Shown here: positions 9,090 to 51,654 of the stretch, one piece after another
Position numbering within the stretch: the stretch's first letter is position 1
How the letters are laid out: each line of letters begins with the position of its first letter
Virus record (IMG/VR): IMGVR_UViG_3300032046_000018
Location: 1 to 64,000 of that record
Direction: 5' to 3' (one strand)
Source: a virus
DNA: 64,000 nt
Program-made: the position numbers and the translations under genes
The notes under the pieces: generated by a model
What the model saw: the letters and a program-made list of their open reading frames with translations, nothing else
Told to the model about the DNA's origin: nothing
Database searches by the model: none

Positions 9090-10116
9090 ACCGGCTGACG
9101 AGACGCCGAAGGAAGCACCTGTCGAGGAGAAGCCTGCGGCAGTGAGGCCTGTTGATGCGAACGTCGCCGAGGTCCTGGTGAACCGGGAAGCGCTCAAGCG
9201 ATTCGTTGAAGACGTGCGATGCAAGGGTATTTCCGAGGTGAGCGATAAGGAGAAGGTGACGCAGGCCGAGCTCTTCGAGAACTTCCTACTGGAAGCAAAG
9301 AAGGGGCAGGGAGCAATCGTCACCGCGACGGATACACATATCAATCTGGTGATAGCACAACACCTCCTCAAGGAGGGAGATGAACTCAAGGTCGTGAACG
9401 AGGGACGGATTCCCGTCACGAACATAGCCGATTGTCTCACCGCAATAACGCGTGTTGGTGGCGACAAGAAGGGGCGGAACATTCAACTCATCTACCCGGA
9501 TGAGGAGAACAAGGTGCGGCTCACCAGGATTGGCACGGAGACGGCGTGGTCGTTCATCACCGAAGGCGAGGAGAAACTCACGAGCCTGGAGAAGACCGAT
9601 AGCCTGCGGCACAAGTGGTCCCCGGAGAAGGATTGCGTCATCTCGTATTCCAAGGATAACATTGAAATCCCGTGGCCAGTCAAGGTCAAGGTCATCCCGA
9701 GCATGCTTCGTGAATTGGCGAAGGACGTGAGCAGTTTCGTCAAGCAGGGCGTTACCAATCTCAAGCTCGCCGATGGAAAGATGCTCTTCTTCTTAGGTGA
9801 CGCGACCGCGTCGAGGAAGGGCTCGAGAGACTTGCAACCCATCACCAGGAAAAAACTGGAAGTGGAGATGGCCAAGGAGGAGCGGAAAGGAGTGGAGTGG
9901 AATGTCGTGAAATCCACGAAATGGGTGGACGCGGCAGACGACGCTACGCCCATAGAAGCGAGATACTATCACGGGCTGTATGCGGTGATAGGGAACATCG
10001 ACGACAGCTTCACGACCGAGATTCACTTCTGCAACATTCTCGGGGGATGGATGATGTGGGTGCACGCTGAAAATGCAACCGCCCGCATGGACTACATGAT
10101 TCCATACGATAAGTAG
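9043..10116 (+). CDS. putative sliding clamp (PCNA-like)
   Basis: A 357-residue protein. An N-terminal 45-residue low-complexity Lys/Glu/Pro region is followed by about 300 residues of alternating strands and helices; the end (FCNILGGWMMWVHAENATAR then MDYMIPYDK) resembles the final strands of PCNA. No sequence motif is diagnostic, so the call rests mostly on context: the virus encodes both clamp-loader subunits and a PolB, and this gene directly follows the SSB and RecA-fold genes. ATG 9043 is preferred to TTG 9037. It overlaps the previous gene by 47 bases. Confidence 0.45.
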   Translation: MSKKANQQPHKEEGSKPADETPKEAPVEEKPAAVRPVDANVAEVLVNREALKRFVEDVRCKGISEVSDKEKVTQAELFENFLLEAKKGQGAIVTATDTHINLVIAQHLLKEGDELKVVNEGRIPVTNIADCLTAITRVGGDKKGRNIQLIYPDEENKVRLTRIGTETAWSFITEGEEKLTSLEKTDSLRHKWSPEKDCVISYSKDNIEIPWPVKVKVIPSMLRELAKDVSSFVKQGVTNLKLADGKMLFFLGDATASRKGSRDLQPITRKKLEVEMAKEERKGVEWNVVKSTKWVDAADDATPIEARYYHGLYAVIGNIDDSFTTEIHFCNILGGWMMWVHAENATARMDYMIPYDK

Positions 10117-10118
10117 AT

Positions 10119-10230
10119 AACACGCGGAGCCCTGGCGGTAGGTGGTTAGACCGCCATCAAACCATGGACACTTGATGGGGATACGCCAATAGCCGAATCC
10201 CCTAACGCGGTGAAAGCCGCGGGTGTTCCA
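10119..10230 (+). ncRNA. structured RNA candidate, multi-hairpin, upstream of tRNA
   Basis: Between the clamp gene stop and the tRNA the sequence folds into four consecutive hairpins: TGGCGG/CCGCCA (10133-10156), CATCAA/TTGATG (10155-10177), GGGGAT/ATCCCC (10177-10202) and CGCGG/CCGCG (10206-10221), all enclosed by AACAC (10119-10123) and GTGTT (10223-10227), followed directly by CCA. Some adjacent stems share bases, so not all can be full length at once. The layout resembles a type II tRNA but lacks a TTC T-loop and a valid anticodon loop. It may be a degenerate tRNA, a tRNA mimic or a leader structure. Confidence 0.45.
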
Positions 10231-10238
10231 CAAACCAT

Positions 10239-10395
10239 AGCAACGTGGTGTAGCCAGACCAACACGCCAGACTCATAACCGCGAGGGCCACGAATGAGAT
10301 TGCGATTTGGCAACTTATATCAATAATGCCTAGGAATCGTGACCGGGCTTCGGGAAATCTGGAGGTCGGAGGTTCAAATCCTCCCGTTGCTACCA
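10239..10395 (+). tRNA. tRNA with CAT anticodon, initiator-like, with intron
   Basis: Exon 1 (10239-10277) and exon 2 (10357-10395) form a complete cloverleaf: acceptor AGCAACG/CGTTGCT, D stem GTGT/ACAC, anticodon stem CCAGA/TCTGG with loop CTCATAA (anticodon CAT, 10274-10276), T arm GGAGG-TTCAAAT-CCTCC, then A and an encoded CCA. The A1:T72 pair, the AGC...GCTACCA ends and the TAGCCAG D-loop start are traits of archaeal initiator tRNA-Met. However, the three G:C pairs that normally stack under the initiator anticodon loop are absent, and the loop has GA where GG is usual. The coding identity (initiator, elongator Met or Ile2) is therefore open. Confidence 0.88.
10278..10356 (+). other. tRNA intron at canonical position 37/38
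   Basis: A 79-base insertion interrupts the anticodon loop one base 3' of the anticodon, the usual archaeal site. It contains its own stems: CACGA (10289-10293) with TCGTG (10337-10341), extended by GG/CC beyond one mismatch, and TTGC (10300-10303) with GCAA (10310-10313). At the junction CTC of the loop can pair with GGG (10352-10354), leaving AAA as a three-base bulge, a relaxed form of the bulge-helix-bulge cut by tRNA splicing endonuclease. Confidence 0.75.
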
Positions 10396-10418: not shown

Positions 10419-10919
10419 ATGGCAGATAAACACGAAAACGAGCAAGAATTTGCAGATGGCATTCCGATGTCAACGGCAATTGCCACGCTAATGGACCACA
10501 TCAACGCTCTGGAGAGCTGGAGGAACGCCGTTATTGAATGCCTTAGCACGCACAAGAAGCGCATGGACGAGTTCATGGGTTTGGCTGACATTTTAAAAGT
10601 GTATGGCCACTTGATTAGTGATGTCGGCAAGGAGGAAGTTAAAAACCTGCTTCTCGAGACAAAGGTCATGGCGCTGGAGGAGCTCCTTGATTCATACGTC
10701 AATGTATTAAGGCCTGCGATCCACGATCACCCGAACTGGTCGACTAATCCCAGCGATTATCTATCGGCGACACTCCCAGGAATAATTGACCGGGCGGCGA
10801 CTCTGGATGACCTGCTCAAGGATATCAAGGACCCCGAGGTAGATAATGGGGAAATCATCTTGAAAATGAATGGCCTCGCGGACAAGTTTGGACCGAAGAA
10901 GGAGGGTGAAAGTAAGTGA
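10419..10919 (+). CDS. unknown helical protein
   Basis: A 166-residue acidic, helix-rich protein starting at ATG 10419 behind AAAGGTG (10404-10410). The open frame extends upstream through the tRNA, which is not coding. It ends with a stop overlapping the next GTG (GTGA). No family recognised. Confidence 0.7.
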   Translation: MADKHENEQEFADGIPMSTAIATLMDHINALESWRNAVIECLSTHKKRMDEFMGLADILKVYGHLISDVGKEEVKNLLLETKVMALEELLDSYVNVLRPAIHDHPNWSTNPSDYLSATLPGIIDRAATLDDLLKDIKDPEVDNGEIILKMNGLADKFGPKKEGESK

Positions 10920-27126: not shown

Positions 27127-27484
27127 CCCTGATAAAGCCGCGAGGAAGCGCATCGAGGATATCCTGAAAGCGAGGCGCCGTGGTAAGGAGGAGATGCCAA
27201 CGTTTCGAGGGGGTAGAAATACCAATCAAATCGCTGATGATTTCTCCACGAAGATCATCGCAAAGATGAACAGGGACAATATTAGCAGTCTCACGATTAC
27301 TGGAAGCGTGATGAGAGCTGAAGTAGGCGACCCTGAAAACCAGGTGTTCAGGAGCAGGTGCAGGGTACATGGATTGAAAATAGTAAAGGACAATTACACG
27401 AATTCATACACGGTAAGTAAATTTGATAGAGTAGAAAAGGAGTTGAAAAAAATTGGCAAGCAATCGAAAAGTACTGGGCTGTAG
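27113..27484 (+). CDS. small basic unknown protein
   Basis: A 123-residue, Lys/Arg-rich protein with a basic N-terminus (KAARKRIEDILKARRRGKEE) and a beta-type core. It overlaps the helicase by 14 bases and the first glycosyltransferase by 32. May bind nucleic acid. No family recognised. Confidence 0.6.
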   Translation: MSKPDPDKAARKRIEDILKARRRGKEEMPTFRGGRNTNQIADDFSTKIIAKMNRDNISSLTITGSVMRAEVGDPENQVFRSRCRVHGLKIVKDNYTNSYTVSKFDRVEKELKKIGKQSKSTGL

Positions 27485-28673
27485 CGATTACTTCGAGAAC
27501 TTCGGGTCGAGCTACGCCCGGCAGTCGAGGCTGGTCCTCGAGATGCTGAATGACTTTGACTGGACATACGTGGCACTGGCGTACCATGGTCCTATAATAG
27601 AAATGAGCGAAAAGCCTCCAGTGCCACGATATCTCCTGTATCCACAAACATTTTTCTATGAACCTCACGAGGAACCAAATCTCCAGGGGATTATCAATAC
27701 CGAGAAGCCGGAGGCTGTTTGGATATACGAGGACGCGCAACACGTTGCTTCATACAAGAATCGGAATCTCACGGGCGCCCCAACCATCGGATATTTCGCA
27801 TGGGACGTGGATTACCATGGTGCCATGCTTGATAATGTCATGCATGCAGTTGATGTCCCCGTGTGTTTCTCGGACTTCGCGGAGAACCTTATCCATGACC
27901 ATGGATATGATGTGGATAAGGTGTACAATTGTGTTGACGAGAACGCGTTTGGAAACATTGGCACATTCGAGGATGATGCTGCATTTATCCGCAACAAGCT
28001 TGGCATCGCACCTGAGAAGAAGATTATATTATACGTGGGTGCATTGCACGCGAGGAAAAACCCTGAGACGCTCATCGCCATGGCGAGGGAACTCAAGCGA
28101 CTCAGGGGAGATGATTTTGTACTCGTCATTCACGGGAACCCGGACTTCAGCCTGATGACGTGTGATATCAGGGTTGAGGTATTCTCTCATGGAGTGCAGG
28201 ACGTGGTCATGTTCACGCCCCATGTCGACGATTGGAATATTGGAATCCCGCCGAGGAGTCTCAACGCTATATACAACATGGCAGACGTGTTCGTGAGCGC
28301 CCACGGTGGAGAAGGGTTTGGATTGCCAGCGTGCGAGGCGGGACTGTGCGGGAAGCCTTTCGTGATGACCGACTGCACCACGACAAGGGAGTTCTCGGAT
28401 GGCGGGAGAAATGGTGTCGCCGTCCCGGTCGCATATCATAGGATGAGCGAGAAGAATGTAATGCCACCAGGCGTCGCTCGCCCGGTGCCGGATCACGTGA
28501 AGTTCGCCGAGGAAGTATCCGCGTTGCTTGATGATGGGCCGAGGCGCAGGGTAATGGGGCAGAGGTTCAAGGAGCACGTGCAGTCCAAGTACACGCAACA
28601 CGTCCTGGCACCAAAGTGGAAGGCGGTGTTCGAGAAGTGCTTCGCTAATCACGTGGGGGTGAAAGAGATATGA
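27453..28673 (+). CDS. GT4-type glycosyltransferase
   Basis: A 406-residue GT-B glycosyltransferase starting at TTG with GGAG 11 bases upstream. The C-terminal nucleotide-sugar domain shows ILYVGALHARKNPETLI and SAHGGEGFGLPACEAGLCGK (E-x7-E motif) near residue 285, with TREFSDGGRNG after it. Family members transfer a hexose from a nucleotide sugar. First gene of the glycosylation island. Likely decorates virion proteins or alters the host surface. Confidence 0.85.
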   Translation: MASNRKVLGCSDYFENFGSSYARQSRLVLEMLNDFDWTYVALAYHGPIIEMSEKPPVPRYLLYPQTFFYEPHEEPNLQGIINTEKPEAVWIYEDAQHVASYKNRNLTGAPTIGYFAWDVDYHGAMLDNVMHAVDVPVCFSDFAENLIHDHGYDVDKVYNCVDENAFGNIGTFEDDAAFIRNKLGIAPEKKIILYVGALHARKNPETLIAMARELKRLRGDDFVLVIHGNPDFSLMTCDIRVEVFSHGVQDVVMFTPHVDDWNIGIPPRSLNAIYNMADVFVSAHGGEGFGLPACEAGLCGKPFVMTDCTTTREFSDGGRNGVAVPVAYHRMSEKNVMPPGVARPVPDHVKFAEEVSALLDDGPRRRVMGQRFKEHVQSKYTQHVLAPKWKAVFEKCFANHVGVKEI

Positions 28674-29276: not shown

Positions 29277-30308
29277 ATGGCTAAAATAGAATGGATGGCG
29301 AACTTCGCCGCCAATAATGGATATGCCGAGGCAGCTCGCCAGTACTGCATCGCGCTCAAGCGCCTCGGCACGGACTTGATACCAACGAGCATGAACCAGG
29401 AGTATCTAAGGGAGTATGCTTGGATGGCCGAGGATTCAAAAAAGAAGAATGATGGGTATTTCAAGATAGTGCACGATATCCCGAGTTGCATGAGCCCCGG
29501 CTTCTACACGACATTCGAGTTCAAGCCAGCGCCAAATGCATGGGCCCAACATCTAAGGAAGGCCCAGGTGGTGATGGTACCGAGCTGGTTTTCCAAGGAA
29601 TGCATTGGTACAGTATGCGATGGCGAGAAAATACACGTCGTGAATCACGGTGTAAACGAAAGATTCGTGCCATTCGGGCCGAGTGTTGAATTACAATTTG
29701 ATGGCAAGCTCCCGGAGTTTAAATTTCTCTCGGTGTTCGAGTGGGTCGATCGGAAGTGCGGGGACCGGCTCATCAAGGCATTCCAGCAAGCGTTCACGCA
29801 GGATGATGACGTGGGGTTGTTCATAAAAACCAGGAACGTGAGGAACATCCCGATGTTCATTAACAAGGTACCTGGCTGCAGGATATACGTGATTGATGGA
29901 TTTGTCAATGACATGAGCCAACTTTACAGGGCTTTTGACGCTTACATCTCCTGCAGTTCTGGTGAGGGATGGGGCGAAACCCTTAGCGAGGCGATGTCCT
30001 GCGGTCTGCCCACGATAGCATCAAGACATAGTGGTAACTTGGAGTTCATGAATGACGAGAACTCCTTCCTGGTCGATGTGGAGCAATGGCAGCCGATCGG
30101 GTACAACAATCTCGAGCCACTCGTCACCCCGTGGATGCAACACCGCCCACCACGATTGGATTGCATGGTAAAAATGATGAAGGACGTGAGCGAGAACTCG
30201 AACGAGATCAAGAGTATAGCCAAGAAGGGGCGCCGAGTGTCCCAGGATTTCACGTGGGAGAAGGCGGCGAAGAAGATAATTGAAATAGTGGAGACGATTC
30301 AACAATGA
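29277..30308 (+). CDS. GT4-type glycosyltransferase
   Basis: A 343-residue GT-B enzyme. FDAYISCSSGEGWGETLSEA with MSCGLPTIASRHSG is the nucleotide-sugar binding region near residue 225. The N-terminal acceptor half (ANNGYAEAARQYCIAL) has the GxxG-type loop of GT4 enzymes. Different from the enzyme at 27453-28673, so a second linkage is likely. Stop overlaps the ATG of the ribbon-helix-helix gene. Confidence 0.83.
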   Translation: MAKIEWMANFAANNGYAEAARQYCIALKRLGTDLIPTSMNQEYLREYAWMAEDSKKKNDGYFKIVHDIPSCMSPGFYTTFEFKPAPNAWAQHLRKAQVVMVPSWFSKECIGTVCDGEKIHVVNHGVNERFVPFGPSVELQFDGKLPEFKFLSVFEWVDRKCGDRLIKAFQQAFTQDDDVGLFIKTRNVRNIPMFINKVPGCRIYVIDGFVNDMSQLYRAFDAYISCSSGEGWGETLSEAMSCGLPTIASRHSGNLEFMNDENSFLVDVEQWQPIGYNNLEPLVTPWMQHRPPRLDCMVKMMKDVSENSNEIKSIAKKGRRVSQDFTWEKAAKKIIEIVETIQQ

Positions 30309-50008: not shown

Positions 50009-51654
50009 TATTCAGCCTTCGTTTTCGATGTATTAGAATTTGACCCACCCATGACCCCTCCAAACGCACCAGGAACGTAAAGCTGCGAGCAGAACACGCT
50101 GGCGAGACTGTGCGTGTGATCGGCAAGCGCCACCATTTTTGCTGCATTTTCCCCGAGATTGATGTGAGTTCCTTCGACATTGATGATCGTGCCCTTCACC
50201 GTCACGCTGCCATCATTTTCTATCTTGATGTACGTTCCAGATTCCGGCGTCGTGTCAGGCTTTGTCGTCGCAGCCGCCGGGGTGGCGGCCTCAATTTTAA
50301 CCGTAGCGGACCGTAGCAACCACGTGGCATTCGCCTTATCAAAGTAAATGTATCCATCTTCTAACCTAAGAAGAAAGTCATCATCTTCCTTCTCGGGTAC
50401 TTGTTGCTTGTCCTTCCCCTCTTTCCATGTCATCGGGCCAATGTAACCATGATTATGATGCTCATTCGGGGAGAATATGAGAGCCCGTGACTTGGTTGTC
50501 TTGGGGAACAAGAGGCCCACGCCATCCCCTGCGAATGGCGTCGTTTTCGTGAGTGGTAACATTTTTATCTCATCACTAAAGTCCCACGCACCAGAATCCT
50601 GCTTGCTGCTATCAGAGGGAGCGACGAGCGCTTGATATCTACCATGCACGTGATCCTTGTCGCTCATGCCATCTCGCTGGCTCACGTCCCCTACTTTTAT
50701 CAGGTCTCCTACTTCCGGGAATGATGAGTGAATATCCTCGTCCTCCAGGACCGCCAGGAGGAGATCATCACACAACACGTCGGCCCTTAGTAGTTTCACG
50801 TGATTCTCCCGCTCGCCATCACCACGTGCATAGTACGACCCTTTCACGACCTTCCACAACCAGCCATCAGCCATGGCAGCGAGTGACCCAGGGAGCGCGT
50901 ACAATGCACCCGGTATCACCGCGTCATACACCACCTTTGCGTCACCGCCCCCACCTGGGATGGCGTACTTCACGTGCCTCCCCGCGCCCGCGAGCCTTCC
51001 AAGTCCTTCAGTGTCGAGTTCCTCATCAGATGGGCTTGGCGATCCAATGTACAAGTCATTTCCGAATGGCGAGTAATAATACTCGAGTTCTAACTCGTGA
51101 GCTATCCTGTTGATGATGAATGCGACGGTCTGGTTGAAGCTGAAGATGTAATCGAACGCCTTGCTAACTTTATCTTTATTATAGTGCACCGTGAACTTGT
51201 CTGGTAATCCATTGGCATCCATGGCCGCCCGCATGAGCTTTGATATTGCTTCGCCATAGTCCTTCGATTTTCCTAGGTCAATGGTTCCGTTGTACTCGCA
51301 ATGTCGCATCCAGTAATAAAGAGGGGCTTCCCCGGTTATCTCCAATCTCCAGTTCTCGTCTCCAAGCGTGTCCTTGTACCTGACATTTGATATGATAAAA
51401 ATCAACGTCCCGTTCTTTATGCCGTGCACCACGACGCTGATCGGGTCCCCTATCTGAGGGATGGATTTTTTCGTGGTTATCGGGTCTATCACGTGGATGC
51501 ATGCTTCGCAATACGTTCCATCAATCCCAAATGACGAGAACACCTGCATCTCATTATCGTCATTGCTAATGATGGCTTTCCCAATTACCTCTCCATCCAC
51601 ATCCCTCATGGGGATGATGAACGTGAGAGCAGTGGTGAACTCGTTGGTAGGCAT
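50008..51654 (-). CDS. baseplate hub/spike protein (VgrG/gp5-gp27-like)
   Basis: A 548-residue protein. The N-terminal part resembles the gpD/gp27 hub (HVIDPITTKKSIPQIGDPIS, then LYYWMRHCEYNG). An OB-like segment (EVGDLIKVGDVSQRDG) leads to a C-terminal spike with repeats such as GTYIKIENDGSVTVKGTIIN and ADHTHS, as in VgrG/gpV spikes. It pierces the cell envelope. ATG 51654 taken; TTG 51660 is upstream. Confidence 0.72.
   Translation of the reverse strand: MPTNEFTTALTFIIPMRDVDGEVIGKAIISNDDNEMQVFSSFGIDGTYCEACIHVIDPITTKKSIPQIGDPISVVVHGIKNGTLIFIISNVRYKDTLGDENWRLEITGEAPLYYWMRHCEYNGTIDLGKSKDYGEAISKLMRAAMDANGLPDKFTVHYNKDKVSKAFDYIFSFNQTVAFIINRIAHELELEYYYSPFGNDLYIGSPSPSDEELDTEGLGRLAGAGRHVKYAIPGGGGDAKVVYDAVIPGALYALPGSLAAMADGWLWKVVKGSYYARGDGERENHVKLLRADVLCDDLLLAVLEDEDIHSSFPEVGDLIKVGDVSQRDGMSDKDHVHGRYQALVAPSDSSKQDSGAWDFSDEIKMLPLTKTTPFAGDGVGLLFPKTTKSRALIFSPNEHHNHGYIGPMTWKEGKDKQQVPEKEDDDFLLRLEDGYIYFDKANATWLLRSATVKIEAATPAAATTKPDTTPESGTYIKIENDGSVTVKGTIINVEGTHINLGENAAKMVALADHTHSLASVFCSQLYVPGAFGGVMGGSNSNTSKTKAE

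Follow-up and report, generated by a model that had tools for sequence, protein, structure and literature searches.

A single tRNA gene, which contains an intron and is best read as encoding a supplementary methionine tRNA with an elongator-type middle and an A1:U72 end, was found in the window, i.e., in the whole 64,000-nucleotide stretch that was analysed (positions 1 to 64,000 of IMG/VR record IMGVR_UViG_3300032046_000018). It is the sole tRNA gene of the 70,984-base virus record. The gene is real and, judging from its sequence, probably encodes a functional methionine tRNA of mixed character. Its identity as an initiator was not established, and its use as an elongator was given an even chance, the highest of the readings considered; these estimates of class are a matter of judgement.

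The gene was detected by two programs. Scanning with cmscan against Rfam gave a tRNA match (RF00005) on the plus strand at 10239-10392 with 50.2 bits (gathering threshold 29, E 9e-8), and a CCA is encoded directly after the matched part, at 10393-10395, which gives a precursor of 157 nt. ARAGORN made no call there when introns were disallowed and returned [10239,10395] with a 79-nt intron when they were allowed; it recognised the spliced form as tRNA-Met(cat). The extent proposed in the first-pass annotation was thus exact, as was its 79-base intron (Table 1). Watson-Crick pairs occupy 21 of 21 positions across the four stems, and this complete pairing, together with the encoded CCA, argues for a maintained gene. 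The gene lies in a gap of 302 bases between the end of one ORF at 10116 and the likely start of the next at 10419. The 122-nt non-coding leader immediately 5' of it (10117-10238) was predicted to adopt a multi-branched fold of -42.6 kcal/mol (z -1.8; 8 of 200 shuffles were equally good) and had no match to an Rfam family. This leader was also considered as a second tRNA, and no tRNA appeared after any single deletion in an ARAGORN single-deletion test.

Table 1. Features of the intron-containing tRNA gene (positions in the window)
Feature	Position	Strand	Basis
tRNA gene (CAU)	10239-10395	+	Rfam RF00005, 50.2 bits; ARAGORN with introns
Acceptor stem, 5' strand, AGCAACG (A1, G2, C3)	10239-10245	+	7/7 Watson-Crick pairs with 10385-10391
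D arm, GTGT-AGCCAGACCA-ACAC; G18 kept, position 19 is A	10248-10265	+	sequence, cloverleaf
Anticodon stem, 5' strand, CCAGA (A29, G30, A31)	10267-10271	+	sequence
Anticodon CAT (CAU), if spliced at 37/38	10274-10276	+	sequence, register test
79-nt intron, canonical position 37/38, one-base ambiguity with A38	10278-10356	+	
Anticodon stem, 3' strand, TCTGG	10358-10362	+	sequence
Variable loop AGGTC, same as in elongator Met of L004/L007	10363-10367	+	
T arm, GGAGG-TTCAAAT-CCTCC	10368-10384	+	
Acceptor stem, 3' strand, CGTTGCT; discriminator A73; encoded CCA	10385-10395	+	

On an archaeal CAU tRNA, A1:U72 normally denotes an initiator. Archaeal initiators are defined by A1-U72 together with the pairs G29-C41, G30-C40 and G31-C39 (PMC6412873), and G30 has been described as the most crucial of these three G:C pairs (PMC7005279). 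The acceptor stem of the window tRNA gives A1:U72, as had been claimed from the letters alone, with A73 present, and so lacks the other acceptor pair expected of an elongator (G1:C72 in both of our elongator references). The anticodon stem gives A29:U41, G30:C40 and A31:U39; hence, two of the three consecutive G:C pairs are missing and only G30:C40 is kept, in agreement with the first-pass remark that the stem does not have three consecutive G:C pairs.

The elongator references were two archaeal-type tRNA-Met genes located in viral contigs (L004 and L007), which were spliced by hand. The anticodon arm and variable loop of the window tRNA (CCAGA-CTCATAA-TCTGG-AGGTC) are identical to theirs at 22 of 22 positions. 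The intron of these references is shorter and differently placed, and the likeness to archaeal elongator tRNA-Met extends instead to the long 37/38 intron of Haloferax volcanii (75 nt). The differences from the elongators are A1:U72 in place of G1:C72, the D stem GTGT/ACAC and the loss of G19, which is replaced by A in the D-loop. With the archaeal initiator, the window tRNA shares A1:U72, G2:C71, C3:G70, A73, G9, the start of the D-loop (AGCCAG), the CTCATAA loop and G30:C40; it differs in A29:U41 and A31:U39 standing for G:C pairs, in the intron and in a variable loop of AGGTC rather than AGATC. G9 and the outer acceptor pairs agree with initiators, and a Haloferax plasmid initiator (L189) fitted better there than the elongators did. 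Over the full length, the comparison of initiator with elongator was nearly a tie, with 50 of 75 positions identical to the Haloferax plasmid initiator and 51 of 75 to elongator L004. The closest full-length match (55/75) was the initiator-type tRNA L138 of a tailed-virus-like Natronosalvus plasmid.

The value of A1:U72 as a marker was examined in other viruses. This pair was also found on the tRNA-Gln of HSTV-2, HGTV-1 and viral record G003 and on some Val and Arg tRNAs of HGTV-1; therefore, A1:U72 need not mean an initiator, and it is not diagnostic by itself in archaeal viruses. The tRNA-Gln of HSTV-2 resembles the window tRNA in its AGC...GCT ends and in an identical TGGTGTAGC at positions 8-16, and differs from it in a TTG anticodon, a GACC-type variable loop and another anticodon arm. 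The earlier description of the ends as those of archaeal initiators was true, although the same ends occur on a glutamine tRNA. Among the matches listed for a wider 3' initiator pattern, the parsed tRNAs that were inspected resembled bacteriophage CAU tRNAs, and a number of them carried A1:U72, which makes this pair weak evidence in viruses generally.

The reading of the anticodon depends on the splice register. CAU, with A73, is obtained on the assumption of cutting at 37/38, whereas ARAGORN with introns allowed picks another register on the precursor, giving CGA. In a bulge-helix-bulge scan, the splice-motif score was highest for 37/38 among the near-canonical registers listed. In this register the exon-side helix has 5 bp, the central helix has 3 of 4 pairs and the intron-side helix has none; the canonical motif (a 4-bp central helix, two 3-nt bulges and flanking helices) is thus absent, and three central pairs were reached by 10% of shuffled introns. 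Euryarchaeal splicing endonucleases have been described as strict toward this motif and heterotetrameric ones as lenient (PMC4090602). A relaxed splice motif is possible, and splicing of the precursor is plausible from its sequence. In H. volcanii, only the Met, Gln and Trp tRNA genes bear introns; that of tDNA-Met (ATG) is 75 nt long and placed at 37/38, the CAU tRNA with the long intron being the elongator (PMC2584109). Pfam searches that covered most of the larger viral ORFs recognised no splicing endonuclease and no tRNA ligase, nor any synthetase or enzyme that modifies tRNAs; splicing by the host would therefore be required, as first supposed.

The virus has tailed-virus core genes (terminase, portal, baseplate J and head protein) of the contractile-tail type, as well as genes for anaerobic NrdD, ThyX, a radical SAM protein and an RFC-type clamp loader. 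In tblastn its PolB matched haloarchaeal viruses only; this and the clamp loader make the virus look archaeal, and its gene content places it, as predicted from sequence, in the archaeal tailed viruses (Caudoviricetes). An ANME-1 host was considered since PolB, ThyX and NrdD occur in ANME-1 viruses (PMC9894754), and no sequence match supported it. Searches of viral contigs with one protein at a time (PolB, terminase and the product of the ORF that precedes the tRNA) yielded no relatives, and distant ones were recovered by PolB alignment. A distant syntenic relative, the 60-kb viral record G001, has similarly ordered genes for terminase, portal, head, PolB, methyltransferase and others, with identities to the window virus of roughly 23-35%. 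No tRNA is present in it, so the gene is not a conserved feature of this lineage. This relative (loci L197-L199) is of low GC content, and its PolB apparently forms two separate ORFs. Two group 1 glycosyltransferases of the window (27453-28673 and 29277-30308) both have homologues in it.

Initiator-type tRNAs were found on archaeal mobile elements. A1:U72 CAU tRNAs were present on ten haloarchaeal plasmid records examined, and most of them keep the three G:C pairs. Plasmid unnamed3 of Natronosalvus rutilus (NZ_CP100358, locus L206), a circle of 58,468 bp, carries the initiator-type tRNA L138 (167-242); its annotation includes a phage tail tube protein as well as a cluster of structural-like genes, and it looks like a tailed-virus genome, so that an archaeal virus-like carrier of such a tRNA exists. 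L138 resembles the window tRNA in A1:U72, in the D-loop CAGA rather than CAGG and in its virus-like carrier, and differs from it in keeping a GTGGG/CCCGC stem and having no intron. A Haloplanus plasmid (L137, 173-247) has an A1:U72 CAU tRNA with the stem CCAGG/CCTGG (A29:U41) and G37. Two genes for MazF-type toxins and one for ribonuclease J are found in the vicinity of this Haloplanus tRNA. Pattern searches, including viral contigs, found no second copy of the mixed combination of initiator-like ends and D arm with an elongator-type stem, and a pattern search for an intronless or short-intron version gave no match. A genome-wide pattern of an initiator-like D arm with an RGA-type stem, with D-loop length fixed, gave one chance match, which was bacterial. 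The canonical initiator pattern had no match in viral contigs, there were no archaeal viruses among the 23 phage records matching the Haloferax initiator at E 1e-3, and no paper on archaeal mobile elements carrying initiator-type tRNAs was found in the literature searched.

The gene, its fold and intron, CAU, A1:U72 and the arm of elongator type come directly from the analysis; transcription, splicing, charging and a role in elongation we infer. It would supply an archaeal tailed virus with a methionine tRNA that adds to the host's own. The precursor would be excised from a transcript and then spliced at 37/38 by host enzymes, and charging by the host MetRS would be expected via CAU and A73. 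The main use would be in elongation; leakage into initiation could occur because aIF2 prefers A1:U72.

The first-pass annotation had left the choice between a modified initiator and an elongator or Ile2 tRNA with unusual ends. The latter fits somewhat better, since the anticodon arm, the variable loop and the intron point to elongator Met. Against this, the nearest whole-length relative (55/75) is an A1:U72 initiator-type tRNA of the 58-kb Natronosalvus plasmid, the Haloplanus tRNA indicates that mobile copies can lose one G:C pair, and the retained G30:C40 contains the most crucial G of the three (PMC7005279). The tRNA might be an initiator with a relaxed AU/GC/AU stem that keeps the critical pair, is taken by aIF2 through A1:U72 and begins the synthesis of viral proteins, perhaps while the host's own initiator is in short supply. 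We consider this possible but doubtful: two of the three hallmark pairs are gone, G19 is missing, and in H. volcanii the long 37/38 intron belongs to tDNA-Met (ATG) and not to the initiator (PMC2584109). In addition, replacement of all three pairs left an Escherichia coli initiator inactive (PMC10486304), although that mutant was more drastic since it also lacked G30:C40. The suggestion that such an initiator would favour viral mRNAs with many GTG or TTG starts found nothing in its support. These starts make up a modest share (8 GTG and 8 TTG against 41 ATG among 57 starts that have an SD-like motif), and with ATG mostly used no special need for non-ATG initiation was seen. Some VapC-type anticodon nucleases cut initiator tRNA. 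Phage tRNAs in general have been proposed to counter host anticodon nucleases (PMC10264068), and a virus-encoded initiator with the AU/GC/AU stem that sustains initiation when such nucleases attack the normal one is conceivable, though unlikely.

Two further readings do not give a methionine tRNA at all. We know of no Ile2 tRNA with A1:U72. An isoleucine tRNA whose C34 is converted to agmatidine for reading AUA would be compatible with the CAU anticodon and useful to the virus, in which AUA makes up 31% of isoleucine codons; it nevertheless seems improbable, as the anticodon arm is the same as in the elongator Met genes with which it was compared. It is likewise unlikely, although somewhat less so, that the gene is degenerating or unspliced and gives no mature tRNA. 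Such decay would agree with the A in place of G19, the imperfect splice motif (three of four central pairs, which shuffled introns reach with probability 0.10, and an intron-side helix missing in this register), the absence of a tRNA from the syntenic relative and the lack of an evident archaeal TATA-like box just upstream, as judged by eye. The full stem pairing, which includes an unusual A/U-rich acceptor, and the encoded CCA speak against decay, and some archaeal endonucleases accept relaxed motifs (PMC4090602). The preferred reading remains a supplementary methionine tRNA with an elongator-type middle; its weaknesses are the missing G19 and the imperfect splice motif.

Provided that it is spliced and charged, this tRNA would offer a natural test case for the separation of initiation from elongation in archaea, since it has A1:U72 without the three G:C pairs; together with its plasmid-borne relatives, it shows that archaeal mobile elements can carry initiator-type tRNAs. 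Should it be simply an elongator whose end is unusual, it would be a minor curiosity. The mixed character is a real oddity of modest weight.

HGTV-1 is also an archaeal tailed virus with tRNAs (36 in number, PMC8651126), of which one is annotated as Met(cat) and one as containing an intron, whereas only one tRNA is present in the window virus. The Met(cat) of HGTV-1 (50108-50193; L015, 1109-1194) differs from the window tRNA in lacking A1:U72 and in having a long variable arm, as in Leu/Ser tRNAs. A similar CAT tRNA with a long arm was observed at 64153-64235 of G005 (locus L193), a viral record of 123 kb in which 47 tRNA matches were counted.
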